Below, one piece after another: positions 9,735 to 30,755 of a stretch of 36,449 bases of DNA. The stretch comes from Planctomycetota bacterium (GTDB lineage: Bacteria > Planctomycetota > Planctomycetia > Gemmatales > Gemmataceae), in NCBI GenBank assembly GCA_021807595.1, contig JAKBCS010000042.1, positions 1 to 36,449 of the forward strand, read 5' to 3'. The position numbers and the translations under genes were made by a program. The notes under the pieces were generated by a model, which searched no databases, was not told the DNA's origin, and saw only the letters and a list, made by a program, of their open reading frames with translations. Positions within the stretch are counted from its first letter, which is position 1; each line of letters begins with the position of its first letter.

Positions 9735-11645
9735 TTAGAAGAAGACTTGGGTGCGAATCCAATAGAGATTCTCATGTTTGGTAAAGTGGTTCGTGCCCAA
9801 GAAGACGGGCGAACCGAACATGGCGTGCTGCCAATCGAGATAGATGCGGACGTAATTGTTGAGATACCAGTTTATACCGGTGTCCACGGCGGTGGCGTTA
9901 TTGCTCCATAGAGCCGGGTTCGCCAAATTGTTGGTGAAAATCTGATTGCCCAGTTGCAGATTGGAGACGCGCGAGAACAACTCGATGGCCCCCGGATTGA
10001 GTCGTCCATTGTAAAATCCGAACGGCCGTTTCGGTTCCAACAAATAGACGCGGCGTGTGATCTCCTCGCCGGTGATGAAATACGTCAGTGCAAGGCTCCA
10101 TCCTTCTAGGGGAACCGTGGTGCGTTGGGTGCTGGCAAACCCGACAAACGCATCGGTACCCAACAAGAAGTTCTTGGTGACGGGCAAAGTTTGATTGCTG
10201 AAGGAATACTGTTGAAATCCACCTTGATAGCCGGCCACCATTGTAAAGCTCTTGTAGTAATACGCCACATCGCCGCCCCACTGCATGCGCATCCCGTTCT
10301 CAAAGGCTCCGTTGTTGAATTCCAGAAAGATCGGCGAGACGTTCTCGACGTTGGCCGAAGGGGATTGATCGTTCGCCGTGGTCAAGAACGTCGGCTGCAA
10401 AGGGTTGTGTTCGTCGCCGGCGTTGTAAGAACCACTGATATTAAGTTGCTCCAACCAATCGATTCCAGAATGCAGAAACGGCTTGAAGTTCAGAAAGGTG
10501 TAAATGTCCTTGCTGTTGTTATAATCTTGGAACGAACGCCGCGGACCGTTGAAAGCACCGACGAAATACTCCATCTGGCGCTCGAAAAGCTGGCCGTGCA
10601 TCATGGCACCGATTTGACGGTTGCCGGCGAAGTTGCCGATAAACAACGATCGCTCCGGCGCAATGAGATCGCTTTCCGAGATTTTAATGTACTCGTAGGA
10701 ATACGGCGTTTTCATGCGACCGACGCGGAGCTGGAAGTTCTCTTTATAGCGCGGGGCGAAATTGAGATCGACCCACGAATCGAGTATATCGAGCGGTCCA
10801 TAACCACGATTGATGACGGTATAATAATAGGCGTAAGGAGTGACCTGCCCCTGGATGTACCAGCGTTGACGAGGGATGACGAAGTTATCGTGCAAGGCAT
10901 CGCCGGTATTGCTGAATAATCTTCCATCGGCCTGTGTTAAATTGTGAAATTCGAAGGTAATGAAATCGTCGGCACTGCGAATTTCGAGACCTTCGCGGAA
11001 AGAGACCGTCGCCGGCACGCGCGGCGGCCTCATGTTCCGCTGATAGGTGCCCAACATATCGACGTAAGATTCCATGGATTGACGCGGTGCCTCTTCAATG
11101 ACTTGCCCTGCGCCGCCGAGACCCGATTGACGGCGCGGCCGGCGGAGCGGCTCAACGGTAATGGGCACTTCCTCCTTGTTCTCATCCTCTTGACTATCCA
11201 GTTCGTCGGAGATCGATTTTTGCTTCGTTTCCGCCGATTTTGCCTCGATCGGATCGTCGCCCGCGGAGCTATCTCCATCTTCCTGAAGGAACGTAAATAT
11301 GGGGCGAAATTGAACGCCGTTGGGGATGCCCTTGCCGTCCGGATTATTCGGAACGATGCCGAAAACCCCATCCGACCCTTGCTTCTGGAGGAGGTTGTAT
11401 TGCTTCGAGAGTCGGTCGTAACGCTTTTGCAGGCTGTTGTTCCGCGATTCCAGCCGACGCAATTGCCATTCGATTCGCGTCCGCCAATCGGGGCCATCCG
11501 GGTCGGTATTTGGCTCCGATTCCTCGGAAGACGGTGCGTCGCCGAACCCCTCCTGAGCGCATAATCTGACCGCGCTCGACGAGAGGAAAACAAGTATCGT
11601 TCCGGTTAGCGCCAGAACGATGCTTATCTTATTCAATCGATCCAT
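9735..11645 (-). CDS. Phosphate-selective porin O/P family protein
   Basis: This 636-residue outer-membrane channel of the Porin_O_P (PF07396) type has an N-terminal signal peptide (hydrophobic core near residues 8-25, likely cut after LCA). A charged coiled coil follows at about 56-92 (LESRNNSLQKRYDRLSKQ), which may make trimers or contact the cell wall, then an acidic, low-complexity link. The barrel holds family-like text such as VGRMKTPYSYEY and APERSLFIGNFAGNRQIG, and ends in aromatic residues (QVFF) as outer-membrane proteins do. A strong GGGGAGG precedes the ATG. Phosphate or another anion as substrate cannot be decided. Confidence 0.85.
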   Translation of the reverse strand: MDRLNKISIVLALTGTILVFLSSSAVRLCAQEGFGDAPSSEESEPNTDPDGPDWRTRIEWQLRRLESRNNSLQKRYDRLSKQYNLLQKQGSDGVFGIVPNNPDGKGIPNGVQFRPIFTFLQEDGDSSAGDDPIEAKSAETKQKSISDELDSQEDENKEEVPITVEPLRRPRRQSGLGGAGQVIEEAPRQSMESYVDMLGTYQRNMRPPRVPATVSFREGLEIRSADDFITFEFHNLTQADGRLFSNTGDALHDNFVIPRQRWYIQGQVTPYAYYYTVINRGYGPLDILDSWVDLNFAPRYKENFQLRVGRMKTPYSYEYIKISESDLIAPERSLFIGNFAGNRQIGAMMHGQLFERQMEYFVGAFNGPRRSFQDYNNSKDIYTFLNFKPFLHSGIDWLEQLNISGSYNAGDEHNPLQPTFLTTANDQSPSANVENVSPIFLEFNNGAFENGMRMQWGGDVAYYYKSFTMVAGYQGGFQQYSFSNQTLPVTKNFLLGTDAFVGFASTQRTTVPLEGWSLALTYFITGEEITRRVYLLEPKRPFGFYNGRLNPGAIELFSRVSNLQLGNQIFTNNLANPALWSNNATAVDTGINWYLNNYVRIYLDWQHAMFGSPVFLGTNHFTKHENLYWIRTQVFF

Positions 11646-11915
11646 TCCGCCTCCCCGCAGAAACGGCCTCGCAAGCGAGCGGACGACCGGCGAGAGTCGT
11701 GAACGAGTTCTTTAATACAATTTCCATAAGCGAGCGATTCCATATCGACTAGCCGCTGGCATTGCAAGGGCAAGCGTATCAATGGAAGTGAATGAATGAA
11801 CGAAAGTGGGTTCTCGTTCGTCTTCTTCTTGACATTCCGCCCGCCGGGGGGTTACGGTTGATCGACGGTTTCATTTTCTAGCAGCGGCCAGGCTTTCGAT
11901 GGGGAGGGAAGGGTT

Positions 11916-13727
11916 TTGCCTCGCGCGATCGTGACGAAGGGAGTGGATGAAGGCAAACAGTTTGCGTTGAGTGGCGAGCGCATCGGCATCGGGCGCGATG
12001 CGACCAACCGCATTCGGCTACACGATACCGAGGTGTCGCGCCGCCACGCTGAGTTCGCGCATTCTGCCGAGGGGTATCGCCTGGTCGATCGCAACAGCGC
12101 CAACGGCACGTTCGTCAACGGGCAATCGATCCGCGATGTGTTGCTTCAAACGGGCGATCAGATACAAATTGGCCAGACTACCCTCGTCTATACCGCGGGA
12201 GCGCGCTCCGGCGTTTGGGACTCGCCGCGAGGCGATCTTGCCGACCGCATCAGCCTCATCGCCCGCCACGATCTCGAGCTGCCGTCGGCCATCGTTCAAT
12301 CCATCGGCGAGACGGAAGGCAGCCGGATTCTCGCCCATCCAGAGCAGGCGGAGGGACCGTGGCTGCAAAATGCCTTGGCCAACCTCATGTATCAGGCCAC
12401 GCAGGCCGTCAGCCATATTCTCGATCTCAACCAACTGCTCGATCGCATCTTGGAGTTGATCTTTCGCCACCTCGATGCCGACCGCGGCTGCATCATGCTG
12501 CGCGATGTGCCCGTGTCCTCCTCCCCCCTCACCCCGCCACCTCCCGGCAGGCGCGCGGAAGACACCGGCGATGCACCGCGGCTTGCCGTCGCCGAGTTTC
12601 AACCGAAAGCGGCACGCTGGCGCGACGGTCTCGATCGCCAAGAAAAGATACCCATCAGCCGAACGCTCATGGATTACGTTCTCCGCGAGAAACAAGGTGT
12701 TCTCGTGTCCGACGTGGCCCGCGACGAGCGCTTTCAGGCGGTGCAGAGCATCGTTCGCCACGGCATTAGCGAGATCATCTGCGTACCCATGAAGGGCCGT
12801 CACGAAACGCTGGGACTTCTTTATCTCGATGCGCGCACGCCGTCGCGCGATCCGCTCGGCTCTCCGCTGCCGGCCGGGAAGTCGGCCAATAAGTTCACGC
12901 GCGAGCATCTCTATCTGGCCGGCGCGATGGCCCATCATGCCGCCTTGGCCGTTGAGGAAACGCGCTACTATCAGGCGATGGTGCAAGCGGAGCGCTTGGC
13001 GGCAGTCGGCCAAACTATCGCCGCGCTCTCGCATCACATCAAGAACATTCTCCAAGGGCTGCGCAGTGGCAGCGAGATCCTTAAATTGGGACTGAAGGAC
13101 ATGGATGCGGCCCTGCTGCAACAGGGCTGGAAGAACATCGAGAAAAATCAGGGCAAAATCTACGACCTCGTCATGGACATGCTCAGCTATTCCAAGGAGC
13201 GCGAGCCGAACATCGAACTCGCAGACCTCAATGCGACGGCCCGCGATACCGTCGAACTGTTGGCTCCGCGCGCCAAAGAACTGGGGATCGCGTTGACCGT
13301 TCGCTTGGACGAGACGCTGCCAAAATGTCCCGCCGATCCAGAAGGCATTCATCGCGCCCTATTGAACATTCTCGGAAACGCCTTGGATGCGGTCGAGGAA
13401 GAGGAATCGCCGAGCGTTCAAGTCTCGACCGCCCAAGAATCCGACGGCGAATGGGTCCGTATTGAAGTGCGCGACAACGGCCCCGGCATCTCACTGGAAA
13501 AGATCAACGACATCTTTCGACCGTTCGTCAGCACCAAAGGCGCGCGCGGCACGGGACTGGGACTCGCCGTCAGCCGAAAGATTCTCCGCGAACACGGTGG
13601 CGACATCCTGGTGCGCAGTCAACCCGGACAGGGCAGTCTCTTTATCCTCCGCCTCCCCCTGCCACGGGCATCGTCTTCGGAAATTCCCAATACGATCGGC
13701 ATTCAATCGGCACCTCCGCCCAATTGA
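11916..13727 (+). CDS. FHA-GAF sensor histidine kinase
   Basis: This soluble 603-residue histidine kinase starts with TTG after a strong GGGGAGGG. The FHA domain covers about residues 3-93 with GRD (26-28), SRRH (41-44) and NGTFVNG (64-70), so it should bind a phosphothreonine partner. A GAF domain spans roughly 160-350. The kinase core has a SHHIKN box with H373 as likely phosphate acceptor, an N-box (NILGNALDA), DNGPGIS, FRPF and GTGLGLAVS. It has no membrane segment, so its signal is cytoplasmic, perhaps from a Ser/Thr kinase recognised by FHA. It precedes a second kinase and an NtrC-type regulator on the same strand. Confidence 0.93.
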   Translation: MPRAIVTKGVDEGKQFALSGERIGIGRDATNRIRLHDTEVSRRHAEFAHSAEGYRLVDRNSANGTFVNGQSIRDVLLQTGDQIQIGQTTLVYTAGARSGVWDSPRGDLADRISLIARHDLELPSAIVQSIGETEGSRILAHPEQAEGPWLQNALANLMYQATQAVSHILDLNQLLDRILELIFRHLDADRGCIMLRDVPVSSSPLTPPPPGRRAEDTGDAPRLAVAEFQPKAARWRDGLDRQEKIPISRTLMDYVLREKQGVLVSDVARDERFQAVQSIVRHGISEIICVPMKGRHETLGLLYLDARTPSRDPLGSPLPAGKSANKFTREHLYLAGAMAHHAALAVEETRYYQAMVQAERLAAVGQTIAALSHHIKNILQGLRSGSEILKLGLKDMDAALLQQGWKNIEKNQGKIYDLVMDMLSYSKEREPNIELADLNATARDTVELLAPRAKELGIALTVRLDETLPKCPADPEGIHRALLNILGNALDAVEEEESPSVQVSTAQESDGEWVRIEVRDNGPGISLEKINDIFRPFVSTKGARGTGLGLAVSRKILREHGGDILVRSQPGQGSLFILRLPLPRASSSEIPNTIGIQSAPPPN

Positions 13728-24314: not shown

Positions 24315-24544
24315 GCTCGACTTGTGCCCAAATTATCGCTGCAAATGGAACGTCCCATGTCAAGTCTCGCCTCCGTGAGGACGGTCGGTCGGTTTAGCGG
24401 TTTAGCGGCGCGAGGGGGAATTGCCCTGGACATTCGCTCGGTACTCATGGTATGCCGAGCGGACGCAGGATTTTCATAAGTCGCTCAGCGCCGCCAGGCG
24501 AGGCGTCTTCCGGGATTCGACGTTCAAAGGATCTCAGGGCGGTA

Positions 24545-27500
24545 ATGGATCGAGCTACCTTCAATTCGTGCTTCCGCTTTGCGCTCGCCGCTTTGGTGTT
24601 GGCCTTAGCCCCCGCTTCGACGCGGGCCGACGCACCTTCTCCATTGCCTCGCTATTACCTCGACATCCAACTCGACACCGACCAACACGTCGCCGTCGTG
24701 CGCCAACGCATCGTGTGGACCAATTGCCAGGCGCGACCGGCCAACGAACTGATCTTCAACGCCCACAGTCACTATCAGCTGCCCGATAAAGATGTAGGCA
24801 TGACCTCCAAGATTTTCGAGATCTTGCGGATGATGCCCAGCGAGTCGCTCGACTTCGAAGGCCACGCCCTGGATGTGCGCAAAGTGCGCCTGATGAAGAT
24901 AGAGCGTGCAGAGAATACGGAAGAATTGGGTCAACCGCGCAAGGTCGAAGACCCGGCGAACGGGGGGGGTAAACCTCAGGAGGCTTACGCCCCCCGCTCG
25001 GCGGAGAAAACTCAGGGGGCTTACGCCCCCCGCTCGGATGGCGATAGTTTGCCGTTTCACTACGACGAGAAGAACGACTCGGCGTTGGTCGTACCTCTGC
25101 CGCGTCCGCTGCTTCAGGGCGAGACGGTCACGGTCGATCTGGATTTCGCCTTGAAGCTGCCGGAGAAGTACGGACGCTGGGGACACTGGCGCGGCATCAC
25201 CTATCTCACGAACTGGCTGCCGGTGCTGGCGGTGTACAATCGGGGCGGCTGGCAACCGACGCCCTACGTTTGCTGGCATCAACCGTTCTACAACGAAGCC
25301 GGACTGTACACGGCGCGGCTGACACTGCCGTGCCAGCAAAAAGTCGCCTGCTCCGCGGCGGTGTTGACCGATACCTCGTTGGCCAACGGTCGGCGACAAA
25401 TCGACTTCGCCCCCTTTTACGCGCGCGACTTCTCGCTGGTTTGCAGCGACCGCTTCCACGAATACACCGGCAAATGCGGCGACATCACCATCCGCTGTCT
25501 GGCCGAGCCGAAACACGAACACCACGCGCGCTTCGCCGTCGAAAGCGCCCGCGAGGCGTTGGCGACCTATAGCCGTTGGTTCGGTCCCTATCCCTATCGA
25601 CATTTTACCGTCGTCGAGTCGTATTTCGGTTGGAACAGCAACGAATGCTCCGGTCTCATTCTGCTCGACTCGCGCATCCTTGGCATGCCCAAATTGGCTA
25701 AGGGGTTCGTCGATTATCTCGTGGCCCAGGCAACCTGCCACCAATGGTGGTACAACGTGGTCGGCACGCACGGCTACAGTGAAACGTGGATGGACGAAGG
25801 GGTAGCCACCTATTTCGCCTATCGCTTGATGAAGACCAAGTACGGCAGCAACGATCCGCTCGTCAACTACCCAACGGGCCTGAAATGGCTGCCCAATGTC
25901 CGCCGCAGCGACTACCGCTATTTCAATCTGTACGGAACCATCGCTCGAGCCGAGTTGCAGCCGACCGTGCAAGACATTCCCAAGTTTGGACACATCGTCG
26001 ATCTTTATAGCATGTGTTACGAGCGCGGCAGCAAAATCATCGGCATGATCGAACACGATCTGGGCGAGAAAGCCTTTTTCGACTTCATGCGCTTCGTCTA
26101 CGAGCGGCACGCTTGGGGCATCTTGCGTGTGGCCGATTTTCAGCGCGATCTCGAGCAATTCACGCACAAATCGTGGCAGACCTTTTTCGATCGTTGGGTC
26201 TACGGTGCCGGAGTGAGCGATTGGTGCGTCGAGGACGTGAAAATTCAATCGACGGCGTCGGAACGACCGCATCTCCCCCGCATGGTCTACGGCCGCTATA
26301 CCTCGGCGATGAAGAGTTGGTTCCGCCCCAAAAATCCCTGTAAGGTCACGGTTATCGTCAAGCAAAAGGCCGACTACAACGATCCAACCGTGTTGGGCTT
26401 TCGGTTGGACGACGGCGAGGGCTATCAAATCCGCATCCCCATCGTCCCGGAGACGGGACTGGTCGAAACCACCGATCCGCCCGGCCGCGTCGAGACCTTG
26501 GCCGACAATCGCGTCCGGGTCGAAGTCGAACTATCGAATTGGCCGACGCAAATCACCGTCGATCCCGATGAGATTCTGGTCGATCGCAATCCGGCGAACA
26601 ACTATTGGAAGCCGAGCTTTCGCGTTCGCGCCACCCCGCTGTACACCTTCCTCGACGAGACGGACCTGACCAACGCCTACGACCGTTGGAATCTCATTTT
26701 CGGGCCGTGGATCTTCGCGCCGACCTACGATAATCCGTGGTTCACGCGCTCGACGCGCTTCGGAGTGCGCGGGGGAGGCTATCGCACGGCGGCTTTCGAG
26801 GGCGGCGGGTACGCGGCCTACCGCACCGACTACCGCGATTTCGTCGAAGGGGTCGATGCCATTTTCGATCATTGGCCCTTTCCGCACACCGAGGCCGGCT
26901 TCGTCTTCGAGCGCCGGTTCGCCGGTACGCTCAAGGGTGAAGACAACGCCAATATCGGCGTCGCCTATGCTCGCTACGTTATCGACTATGGCGATAGCCT
27001 TTATCTGCCACCCTTCCAATATGCCGAGGTGTTCACCACCATTCAGGACGATTTGTTGCCCTTGGCGCGGGAGACCGTGCCAGGCGCGGAGCGCTTTCGC
27101 CATCAAGGCATGGGCGGTGCCCACTATCACATCAACTATCTGACGCCGTACTGGAATCCCGAAGGCGGCTTCTCGGCGGACGTCAGTTACGCCGGCGGAC
27201 TCGTGCTGCCGGGCGAAGCGCAAGCCATCGACGGTTCGCATCAGTTTCTCGGACAGGCGACCTATGTGCAAGCCATGCCGGACGGTCTGGGGTGGCTTTC
27301 CGACACCGTGTTCGCCTTTCGCGCCTACGGAGCCTTTGGCCTGCCCAACAATGTGCAGTATTTTGCGCTGGGAGGCAGTTCGTTATTCCGCGGCTACGAC
27401 TTGGCCCAACGTCAGGGCAATGCCCTCTGGGTGGGCAGCGTGGAATGGCGATTCCCGGTGGCGCGGGAGCTAAATTGGGCCTTCTTCGACCGCGCGTTTA

Positions 27501-27724
27501 ACTTGCGCGGCATCTATGCGGCGGCGTTCTGCGACGTGGGCAATGTCTACTTGCGCGGTCAGTCCGTGGGTAGCGGCGTAGCCGAGGCCGTCGGAGCGGG
27601 TTTGCGGCTCGATGTCGCCTGGTTCACCTTCGTCGAACGCACCATCTTCCGCCTCGACGCCGCCAAGACCGTCAACAGCACCGCCCCCATGCAAATCTGG
27701 GCGGGAATCGAGCATCCATTTTGA
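24545..27724 (+). CDS. M1-peptidase-like pseudoenzyme fused to beta-barrel
   Basis: From the ATG at 24545 the protein has 1059 residues; an upstream in-frame ATG at 24452 is rejected because the signal peptide (FRFALAALVLALAP) starts here. Residues up to about 620 resemble M1 aminopeptidases: YFGWNSNECSGLILLD in the GAMEN region, then VAQATCHQWWYN and WMDEGVATYF. The normal HEXXH-X18-E is here Q395-A396-T-C-H399 with E418 at the right distance, so one zinc ligand and the catalytic Glu are missing. The last 350 or so residues look like an Omp85/surface-antigen barrel (GGSSLFRGYD; end GIEHPF). It is probably outer-membrane anchored and catalytically dead. Residues about 144-164 are a repeat insertion. 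Confidence 0.8.
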   Translation: MDRATFNSCFRFALAALVLALAPASTRADAPSPLPRYYLDIQLDTDQHVAVVRQRIVWTNCQARPANELIFNAHSHYQLPDKDVGMTSKIFEILRMMPSESLDFEGHALDVRKVRLMKIERAENTEELGQPRKVEDPANGGGKPQEAYAPRSAEKTQGAYAPRSDGDSLPFHYDEKNDSALVVPLPRPLLQGETVTVDLDFALKLPEKYGRWGHWRGITYLTNWLPVLAVYNRGGWQPTPYVCWHQPFYNEAGLYTARLTLPCQQKVACSAAVLTDTSLANGRRQIDFAPFYARDFSLVCSDRFHEYTGKCGDITIRCLAEPKHEHHARFAVESAREALATYSRWFGPYPYRHFTVVESYFGWNSNECSGLILLDSRILGMPKLAKGFVDYLVAQATCHQWWYNVVGTHGYSETWMDEGVATYFAYRLMKTKYGSNDPLVNYPTGLKWLPNVRRSDYRYFNLYGTIARAELQPTVQDIPKFGHIVDLYSMCYERGSKIIGMIEHDLGEKAFFDFMRFVYERHAWGILRVADFQRDLEQFTHKSWQTFFDRWVYGAGVSDWCVEDVKIQSTASERPHLPRMVYGRYTSAMKSWFRPKNPCKVTVIVKQKADYNDPTVLGFRLDDGEGYQIRIPIVPETGLVETTDPPGRVETLADNRVRVEVELSNWPTQITVDPDEILVDRNPANNYWKPSFRVRATPLYTFLDETDLTNAYDRWNLIFGPWIFAPTYDNPWFTRSTRFGVRGGGYRTAAFEGGGYAAYRTDYRDFVEGVDAIFDHWPFPHTEAGFVFERRFAGTLKGEDNANIGVAYARYVIDYGDSLYLPPFQYAEVFTTIQDDLLPLARETVPGAERFRHQGMGGAHYHINYLTPYWNPEGGFSADVSYAGGLVLPGEAQAIDGSHQFLGQATYVQAMPDGLGWLSDTVFAFRAYGAFGLPNNVQYFALGGSSLFRGYDLAQRQGNALWVGSVEWRFPVARELNWAFFDRAFNLRGIYAAAFCDVGNVYLRGQSVGSGVAEAVGAGLRLDVAWFTFVERTIFRLDAAKTVNSTAPMQIWAGIEHPF
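24975..25037. repeat. Two in-frame copies of a 27-bp palindromic repeat
   Basis: Units at 24975-25001 and 25011-25037 match at 26 of 27 positions with a 36-bp period, exactly 12 codons. Each contains GGCTTACGCCCCCCGCTCGG, and a preceding run of eight G with GTAA (near 24962-24972) can pair with TTACGCCCCCC. The encoded residues EAYAPRSAE and GAYAPRSDG form a loop in the peptidase-like domain. Flanking codons are undisturbed. Confidence 0.85.
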
Positions 27725-28780: not shown

Positions 28781-28840
28781 GGCGGCGTAAGCGGCCGGGT
28801 TCTGTTCGCCAAACCCGGCAGCGTAAGCGGCCGGTTCGCC
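28781..28840. repeat. Tandem pair of the dispersed repeat
   Basis: GCGTAAGCGGCCGG occurs at 28785-28798 and again at 28821-28834, with GTTCGCC following each. These are inverted relatives of the units at 13728 and 22376. The array ends at the first base of the stop codon of the leftward porin gene. Confidence 0.65.
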
Positions 28841-30384
28841 TACCAGCGAATGATCAAATCCGACGCCGCCGTGAAAATGCCGTGATGGCCTTCAAACGGT
28901 TTTTGCAACCAATTGTCGTCGTAGCGCAATTCGGGGCGAATGACCATGCTCTTGTTGATGTGATATTGCACGCCCGTTGTCAGAGAGGTGTAGAGCCCGG
29001 CAAAGCCGGTACGTTGGCCCTGGCAGTCGTCGAACGTCTCAAAACGGACAACACTTCCCCATTTAGGAGAAATCGTCCAGAACATATAGTGAGCCGCAGA
29101 GAACCAGTTGGCGAAACCGTTGGAGCTTCCGACGGCCAAGGCATCTTGCGGCACATTGTTCTGATAGGCGTAAATCGCCTCCATATTGTAACTCAGCACG
29201 GTGTTGAACAAATGGGTATAGACGAGATCGAAAGCGTTGAAATTGTTGCGGCCAAACGGCTCGGTGGCCAGCGCGACGGTGCTTTGTTGCGGCGGCGTGG
29301 CGTAGGCGGGATTAAACGTGCCGCGACCCAACGATGTGGCCACCGTAACCGTGTTGCGTCCGCCCGGCTGCACCCAGCGGAGATTGCCGACGAAACGCAA
29401 CTCTTCGGACGGATCGCCGAAGAACACGTCGTTACCGTTGGCCAGCATGAACACGCCGGACCATTCCTTGTTGAAGGTCACATACGCGGCCAGGCCAGAA
29501 TGGGTGAAGGGGGGAGACCAGTTGAAGGCATAAGAGCGAGAAAGCAACGGCGTACTGACCGCTTCGAGGCTTTCCACGCCCCACGGAGTATACAAGCGGC
29601 CCAAACGGAACTCCACCCCTTGAAACAGCGTCGGCACATACATCGAAACGTATTCTTGAATCGGATCGACGCCGTAGAGATTCTGCCCACCCGTCGAATT
29701 GTACAACTGACTGTTGAACAACCCGCGCGGCAAGGTAAAGCGATAGTCGCTACCGGTCAGCACGTCGAGCTGAAAGCCGAAGCTCGGCGACGTGGTGCCG
29801 CTGGTGACGACGCTGCGGCCGACGCGGAACCACGCCTGCTGCATTAAATACTTGTTGGCCTGGTCGTTCCAGGTAATGGTACCGTTGGTGACTTTGTCCG
29901 TACTGGCGGTGTACGACTGCTCGACCCAGCCGGTCATAAAGAAGCGATTGTCGTCGAAAAACGCTCCCAGGGCCGTACCCTGTAACTCGCGCATCAACCA
30001 CCAACGGTCGGGGAGCGGCGCGGGCGGGGCGGCCGGCGCGGGCGGGACGGGCGGCGGAGCCGGCGTCGCCAAAAACGGCGCGGTAATCTCCACCGGCTCG
30101 GCGGGAGCGGCGGCATCGGAGGATTCCGCAGCAGCGGCGCGCGACCACGTTAAACTGGGAAAATTCAACGCAGCGTCGGCTGGTCCGGTGGCACTCGGAG
30201 AGCCACGAACGGAGTCGCTAGAAGGCAGATCGTCCTGAATCGGGTATAACTGGGCGGTTGGGGCGGGAGAGATCGAATCCAATTGAGGACCGACCGCCGA
30301 CACGGCCGCCCCAAGCGGGGCGGTAGCCTCTCCGGTTGTCTGTCCCGGCGTAAGAGCCGTCAACAGCAATACGAACGATACCAT
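28840..30384 (-). CDS. OmpL-like beta-barrel porin (BBP2 family)
   Basis: I start at the ATG at 30384, with CGGAG six bases upstream, giving 514 residues; starts at 30414 and 30417 would add about ten residues. The N-terminus is a signal peptide (FVLLLTALTPG). A long Ala/Pro-rich link follows, ending near PAPAAPPAPLPD. The remaining 380 or so residues are the alternating strands of an outer-membrane barrel, with text like GFQLDVLTGSDYRF, RLGRLYTPWGVE and VQYHINKSMVIRPELRYD typical of the BBP2 (PF07642) family. It ends in IIRW, an aromatic C-terminus. The transported substrate is unknown. Confidence 0.82.
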   Translation of the reverse strand: MVSFVLLLTALTPGQTTGEATAPLGAAVSAVGPQLDSISPAPTAQLYPIQDDLPSSDSVRGSPSATGPADAALNFPSLTWSRAAAAESSDAAAPAEPVEITAPFLATPAPPPVPPAPAAPPAPLPDRWWLMRELQGTALGAFFDDNRFFMTGWVEQSYTASTDKVTNGTITWNDQANKYLMQQAWFRVGRSVVTSGTTSPSFGFQLDVLTGSDYRFTLPRGLFNSQLYNSTGGQNLYGVDPIQEYVSMYVPTLFQGVEFRLGRLYTPWGVESLEAVSTPLLSRSYAFNWSPPFTHSGLAAYVTFNKEWSGVFMLANGNDVFFGDPSEELRFVGNLRWVQPGGRNTVTVATSLGRGTFNPAYATPPQQSTVALATEPFGRNNFNAFDLVYTHLFNTVLSYNMEAIYAYQNNVPQDALAVGSSNGFANWFSAAHYMFWTISPKWGSVVRFETFDDCQGQRTGFAGLYTSLTTGVQYHINKSMVIRPELRYDDNWLQKPFEGHHGIFTAASDLIIRW

Positions 30385-30755
30385 TGCTATCTCCGCAGCG
30401 CCTTCGCGCACCATCACCCATCACGCGACACGGATGACAACGGCAAGGAGAGGAGGTGCCGTCCCATTCGAGGCGCAGTGATTTCCATGCCGCCATCTCG
30501 CTCAGACTGTAGGGATTGTATCGGCAGAATTTCTCAGAAATTTCAGTGCCTTTTGAGATACATTTCAGCCCGACATAAAGCTCTCCTTGAGCGCGGGGGA
30601 GTGGGAGGTATTGCGGATAAAACGGTAAAGGTTCCTTGATCCCTCGTTCTTTCCGCGTTACCATCACCATTATGGCGAGCGAGGGGCATTAGCCCTCCGA
30701 TGCTAGCCAGCACAATGATTCCTGCATCTTCGGGACGCTGCGAGGAGATCGCCGC
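30385..30755. other. Intergenic region between porin and DUF1549 gene
   Basis: This divergent gap should hold promoters for both flanking genes. Apart from a weak hairpin at 30681-30697 (GAGGG / CCCTC with a seven-base loop) nothing stands out. A long leftward reading across it is an antisense shadow of the next gene. Confidence 0.4.

Follow-up and report, generated by a model that had tools for sequence, protein, structure and literature searches.

A predicted M1 pseudopeptidase carried on an Omp85-type barrel in a planctomycete genus: a candidate non-catalytic holder of N-termini or partner of an active paralogue

Peptide hydrolysis by M1 metallopeptidases requires both the first zinc-binding histidine and the general base. 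In the M16B peptidases, inactive and active subunits pair, and among fusions of an enzyme to an Omp85 barrel the best-studied protein is PlpD. Pseudoenzymes are known among metallopeptidases, and the M1-family protein Tma108 binds nascent chains via the pocket in which related aminopeptidases accommodate the N-termini of their substrates (reviewed in PMC11266112). An M1 peptidase with its glutamate mutated to alanine has been crystallised with a bound tripeptide substrate, according to the title of entry 6ifg. The enzyme domain of PlpD has been demonstrated to be periplasmic (PMC11116518), and none of the ten Omp85 subfamilies delineated by Heinz and Lithgow (2014) is named with M1 (PMC4104836). 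Our search of the open-licence literature found no description of M1–Omp85 fusions or of dead members among them.

We analyzed such a fusion in a window of 36,449 nucleotides, positions 1 to 36,449 of contig JAKBCS010000042.1 from a Planctomycetota bacterium; all features of the gene lie on the forward strand. The coding sequence of the M1-like pseudopeptidase–barrel fusion (24545-27724) specifies 1059 amino acids if read from the ATG at 24545, near which the N-termini of relatives align, and counted from this start the frame is intact over the length originally reported; an alternative in-frame ATG upstream, at 24452, would yield 1090 amino acids. Read from 24545, the protein opens with a plausible signal peptide, and its last residue is a phenylalanine (27719-27721), as is typical of BAM-assembled outer-membrane proteins. 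The probable Sec signal (24545-24634) was recognized from a hydrophobic stretch with an ASTRADA end and corresponds to a helix over residues 3-20 of the model. It is followed by the predicted N-terminal beta domain I (24641-25504; M1 structure match from residue 33), the thermolysin-like, pseudo-catalytic domain II (25505-26251) and the beta domain III (26252-26584; M1 structure match), which leads from the peptidase domain to the barrel. The Pfam Peptidase_M1 model matches over its full profile at residues 330-551 (25532-26197) with 57.9 bits against a cut-off of 27.7. Domain I contains a low-confidence insert (residues 127-163; 24923-25033), part of which consists of two in-frame copies of a dispersed 36-nt repeat (24964-25035), at a place where the M1 domain has a variable linker. 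With up to one mismatch allowed, the 20-nt core of this repeat, GGCTTACGCCCCCCGCTCGG, is present 48 times in the genome, as opposed to no copies for the reversed control, and it is often in tandem at 33-36-nt spacing; similar APRS-type peptides are seen in the corresponding linker of relatives. The window also carries two more genes for outer-membrane porin-like proteins (Porin_O_P and BBP2; 9735-11645 and 28840-30417).

At the position of the HEXXH signature, the codons CAG GCA ACC TGC CAC (25727-25741, in frame with ORF 24452-27724) spell QATCH, as the original prediction had read them: the first zinc histidine is replaced by glutamine and the catalytic glutamate by alanine, with the second histidine, His399, kept. 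Equally, His399 and Glu418 (25796-25798), at the position of the third zinc ligand, do preserve the HX18E spacing that had been pointed out, such that the protein displays QATCH-X18-E in place of the HEXXH-X18-E zinc-binding and catalytic motif. In a search of PDB sequences, NSNEC falls opposite GAMEN, and Tyr492 opposite the catalytic tyrosine of M1 peptidases. The glutamate of the GxMEN exopeptidase motif is present as Glu367, although in NSNE (25634-25645; family consensus NGNE) rather than a literal GxMEN, and Tyr492 (26018-26020) occupies the catalytic/transition-state tyrosine position; both are near-invariant in the family alignment. One HEICH-bearing member (L050; G037:C121) has a glutamine at the former position (NGNQC). 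The QATCH clade shows specific changes flanking the site, namely G365S, D493E and H426Y. Given that both the first zinc histidine and the general base are replaced, this copy is very unlikely to hydrolyse peptides. The Pfam match, the AlphaFold2 model and the QATCH reading together support the earlier suggestion that the fold is kept without the canonical catalytic residues.

An AlphaFold2 model of the full window protein, built with 58 family sequences, attains a pLDDT of 86 and a pTM of 0.85. In a fold search domains I-III resemble M1 aminopeptidases, with the best Z of 33.6 to the tricorn F3 structure 1z1w, and the C-terminal part of the model forms 16 strands (residues 715-1054; 26687-27706). 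When folded alone this part retains a pLDDT of 85 and matches TamA, BamA and Sam50 with Z of 18-22 (22.4 for Pseudomonas aeruginosa TamA and about 20 for BamA); among its top 50 fold-search rows all 50 are Omp85-superfamily proteins. The Omp85 Pfam model scores a sub-threshold 19.2 bits on the window protein (cut-off 24) and matches 23 of 39 relatives, the best at 4e-9. A further hallmark is FRGY (residues 948-951; 27386-27397), which corresponds in the family alignment to the Omp85 loop-6 (V/I)RG(F/Y)-type motif, with the arginine in 54/54 and the glycine in 51/54 of the relatives that have the region. Many members from one other family of the class (L144-L156, L160 and L163-L168) have RA instead of RG in loop 6, with the other parts of the barrel aligning. 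The proposed placement of an M1 domain on an Omp85-like barrel is hence borne out at the level of the model, the structure prediction that had been suggested as a check having returned a 16-stranded Omp85-type barrel; the alternative that there is no barrel is rejected by these strands and fold matches. In the modelled fusion the barrel takes the place of the helical domain IV of M1 peptidases. Omp85 proteins usually, though not always, bear at least one POTRA domain; none is among the Pfam matches of the window protein, and the intervening domain aligns with M1 structures.

Relatives of this protein were recovered by protein searches in 56 of the 61 sampled genomes of the family. A barrel-profile scan detected the fusion beyond this family, in further families of the order and class, which rejects its confinement to a single family. 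The HEXXH region is seen in 39 of 40 loci retrieved, the remaining one (L174) being a contig-edge fragment without the motif; in all 39 the motif is intact, in proteins of about 960-1150 amino acids with the same architecture. The named records among the relatives belong to Gemmataceae and allied Planctomycetota, e.g., Limnoglobus roseus, and from them we infer the class name Planctomycetia. M1–Omp85 genes from records titled Bacteroidales and Kuenenia (L010 and L027) fall inside the Gemmataceae-type tree and probably come from misnamed or contaminated bins. A 931-aa frame (L003; G000:C253, about 9984-13400) has a weak, sub-threshold match (24.2 bits) to the latter half of the M1 profile, lacks HEXXH and lies behind an apparently unrelated N-terminal domain; it is possibly another M1 relic.

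Judging from these sequences, the fusion itself is common in the class, with nearly all its members looking active: of 100 distinct full-length proteins from across the class, HExxH is present in 96 and QAxxH in four, a distribution that requires a single change on the tree. When 102 genomes of the order were scanned at the codon level for x-x-x-C-H-Q-W-W-Y, 75 sites were recovered, 71 with His-Glu and four with Gln-Ala; as the pattern demands C-H-Q-W-W-Y it misses the EQVAQ copy described below, and such cases were covered by the protein searches. The Gln-Ala sites fall within the window's genus, a group that we take to be soil bacteria: each of its four sampled genomes has one such site and also carries a separate HEXXH-intact paralogue. 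The QATCH copies are 74-96% identical and form a single clade (support 100), whose sister is a protein of a different genus with an intact HEICH; the active paralogues that accompany the QATCH copies, with about 45-52% identity to them, sit in a separate clade. Hence, the QA change appears to have arisen once, in the ancestor of the window's genus. Moreover, the QATCH copies differ at third codon positions (GCA/GCG and ACC/ACT) with the amino acids unchanged; the sharing of QATCH by four genomes together with these silent differences argues against chance and rejects a lone mutant or a sequencing error. The alignment of homologues proposed at the outset thus finds QATCH kept in 4/4 genomes of the genus. 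The original prediction was to fall if close homologues were intact and this copy was a lone mutant: the former does hold, but the latter does not, QATCH being fixed in a genus-level orthologue clade, and this clade supports long-term retention of the dead site. The gene neighborhood of the QATCH copy is not conserved beyond the closest genome and indicates no pathway.

A further copy in another genus (genome G036) points to a second loss. Alongside an active HETCH copy, this genome has an open frame of 1055 codons (G036:C206:4800-8300; L194) with EQVAQ for HEXXH, in which the third-ligand glutamate is also changed to alanine, the GxMEN-type glutamate to serine and the tyrosine to alanine. In the tree it is placed apart from the QATCH clade, on a long branch whose exact place is unsure, such that two losses are needed. 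Second copies that are full-length or nearly so were seen in three genera, i.e., the window's genus and those of G036 and G061; in G061 both copies have HEXXH, with one cut by a contig end in a bin with 5% contamination. Among single-copy genomes, no loss of HEXXH was found where the motif could be read. Accordingly, the sequences point to two independent catalytic losses, both only beside an active copy.

Between the halves of the QATCH clade, over common columns, dN/dS of the pseudo-catalytic domain is 0.073 vs 0.123 in the active paralogue, a difference that is not significant (95% interval -0.117 to 0.010), and that of the barrel is 0.122 vs 0.090; these Nei–Gojobori ratios are rough, given a dS of about 1.0-1.4, near saturation, at the deep split, and the clade is carried by four MAGs only. 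For closer QATCH pairs dN/dS in the pseudo-catalytic domain is 0.03-0.06. As far as such sequence comparisons indicate, this domain is under purifying selection. The combination that defines a pseudopeptidase, i.e., loss of the catalytic residues in a gene conserved under selection, is found here in four genomes and one clade, with a dN/dS of 0.07. Columns invariant in other members tell a complementary story: the QATCH clade changed 8/47 of them in the catalytic domain, including Q395, A396, S365 (beside the GxMEN-type glutamate) and E493 (beside Tyr492), and 3/84 elsewhere (Fisher p 0.017), which points to relaxed constraint confined to the active-site domain. The corresponding counts are 1/47 and 3/84 for the active paralogue and 16/47 and 3/84 (p 4e-6) for the G036 copy, which thus keeps 81 of the 84 columns elsewhere.

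We consider it probable that the QATCH protein is an M1–Omp85 pseudopeptidase, most likely periplasmic, that holds N-termini as a receptor or holdase or partners the active paralogue in a non-catalytic role. An active M1–Omp85 member would have been duplicated, with one copy becoming the pseudopeptidase and the active paralogue remaining. In the ancestor of the window's genus the former would have lost the first zinc ligand (H to Q) and the general base (E to A), and very probably it neither binds the catalytic zinc nor hydrolyses peptides. Purifying selection would have kept the remaining substrate site (the GxMEN-type glutamate, the tyrosine, the second histidine and the third-ligand glutamate) along with the other domains. 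The protein's own barrel would anchor the M1-like module at the outer membrane, the module probably facing the periplasm by analogy to PlpD, and N-termini of proteins or peptides would be held uncut in the old substrate groove. The retention of Glu367 and Tyr492 suggests that the groove may still hold an N-terminus; both substrate binding and partnership are what we infer, the former from the kept residues.

The main rival, by virtue of both losses occurring beside an active paralogue, is that the dead copy is chiefly a regulatory or structural subunit, forming a heterodimer with the active M1–Omp85 paralogue and having no substrate binding of its own. Retention of the scaffold and barrel with release of the active-site columns is in line with this proposal, and PlpD furnishes a precedent for dimerization of Omp85 fusions (PMC11116518). 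However, the paralogues are only about 45-52% identical and in different clades, and single-copy relatives manage without a partner; on balance we regard this subunit role as possible but less likely for the QATCH copy. The G036 copy, having also lost the residues equivalent to Glu367 and the tyrosine, seems a better fit for it, and binding through those residues cannot be a function common to both pseudo-copies. We tentatively entertain, as possible though not favored, the broader generalization that, following duplication, M1–Omp85 proteins of Gemmataceae-type planctomycetes repeatedly became outer-membrane-tethered pseudopeptidases working with an active sister, by either holding client N-termini for it or controlling it.

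Other readings fare less well. The architecture of an N-terminal passenger and a C-terminal Omp85 barrel is reminiscent of a type V-like autotransporter, wherein the M1-like domain, exported to the cell surface by the barrel, would serve as an adhesin or receptor; yet no POTRA domain is recognized by Pfam, and PlpD, long assumed to be the model for such export, retains its passenger in the periplasm (PMC11116518), making this unlikely. For the same reason the secretion role originally floated for the M1-like domain appears less likely. It is quite improbable that the protein is still an enzyme by an unusual route, be it metal ligation by Gln/His/Glu with another base or a different reaction: His399, Glu418, Glu367 and Tyr492 are kept, and G365S, D493E and H426Y could represent re-tooling, but the changes of the base to alanine and of the first zinc histidine to glutamine are seen in none of the 96 intact relatives. 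Finally, absent catalytic residues and an active paralogue in the same genome might signal a copy drifting towards a pseudogene; this is scarcely credible and was rejected in light of the open frame in 4/4 genomes and a dN/dS of 0.03-0.09 in the pseudo-catalytic domain, and on the tree the QATCH branches do not exceed the active paralogue's in length.

If the generalization to repeated pairs is true, the dead/active peptidase pairs so far described chiefly in eukaryotes would have a counterpart in the bacterial envelope. The system presents a natural experiment, in which an enzyme–barrel fusion is kept class-wide and catalysis appears to have been lost at least two times, only beside an active copy, with scaffold and barrel fixed. 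What M1 folds do other than catalysis, and how an Omp85 barrel may serve as a platform for tasks beyond membrane-protein assembly, thereby become directly testable. In practical terms, the dead copies would be wrongly labelled if annotated automatically as "M1 aminopeptidase".

Pseudopeptidases are a kind already known, as are enzyme–Omp85 fusions; the placement of an M1 pseudopeptidase on such a barrel appears to be new. With the M1 aminopeptidases (tricorn F3 1z1w, ERAP1/2, PepN and the Deinococcus M1 peptidase 6ifg) the window protein shares the fold of domains I-III, the HX18E spacing, the tyrosine and the GxMEN-type glutamate, but it has QATCH instead of HEXXH, NSNEC instead of GxMEN and an Omp85 barrel instead of the helical domain IV. 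The M16B/MPP pairs likewise keep dead and active homologues together, albeit in a different peptidase family. The yeast M1 pseudo- or putative aminopeptidase Tma108 is likewise an M1 fold proposed to bind N-termini non-catalytically (PMC11266112); unlike the window protein, it keeps HEXXH, is devoid of one substrate-binding residue, acts at the ribosome and has no barrel. The barrel is shared with TamA and BamA in fold (Z 22.4 and about 20, respectively) and in the loop-6 RG(F/Y) motif, the differences being the peptidase-like module and the lack of a recognized POTRA domain. In the Omp85 "Metallo" subfamily, too, the barrel is preceded by an N-terminal domain termed a metalloprotease, but that domain is PF00149 rather than M1 (PMC4104836). 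PlpD, a patatin-like Omp85 protein, similarly has its enzyme domain N-terminal to a 16-stranded barrel and differs in bearing a patatin rather than an M1 domain, in possessing a POTRA domain and in being a homodimer (PMC11116518).
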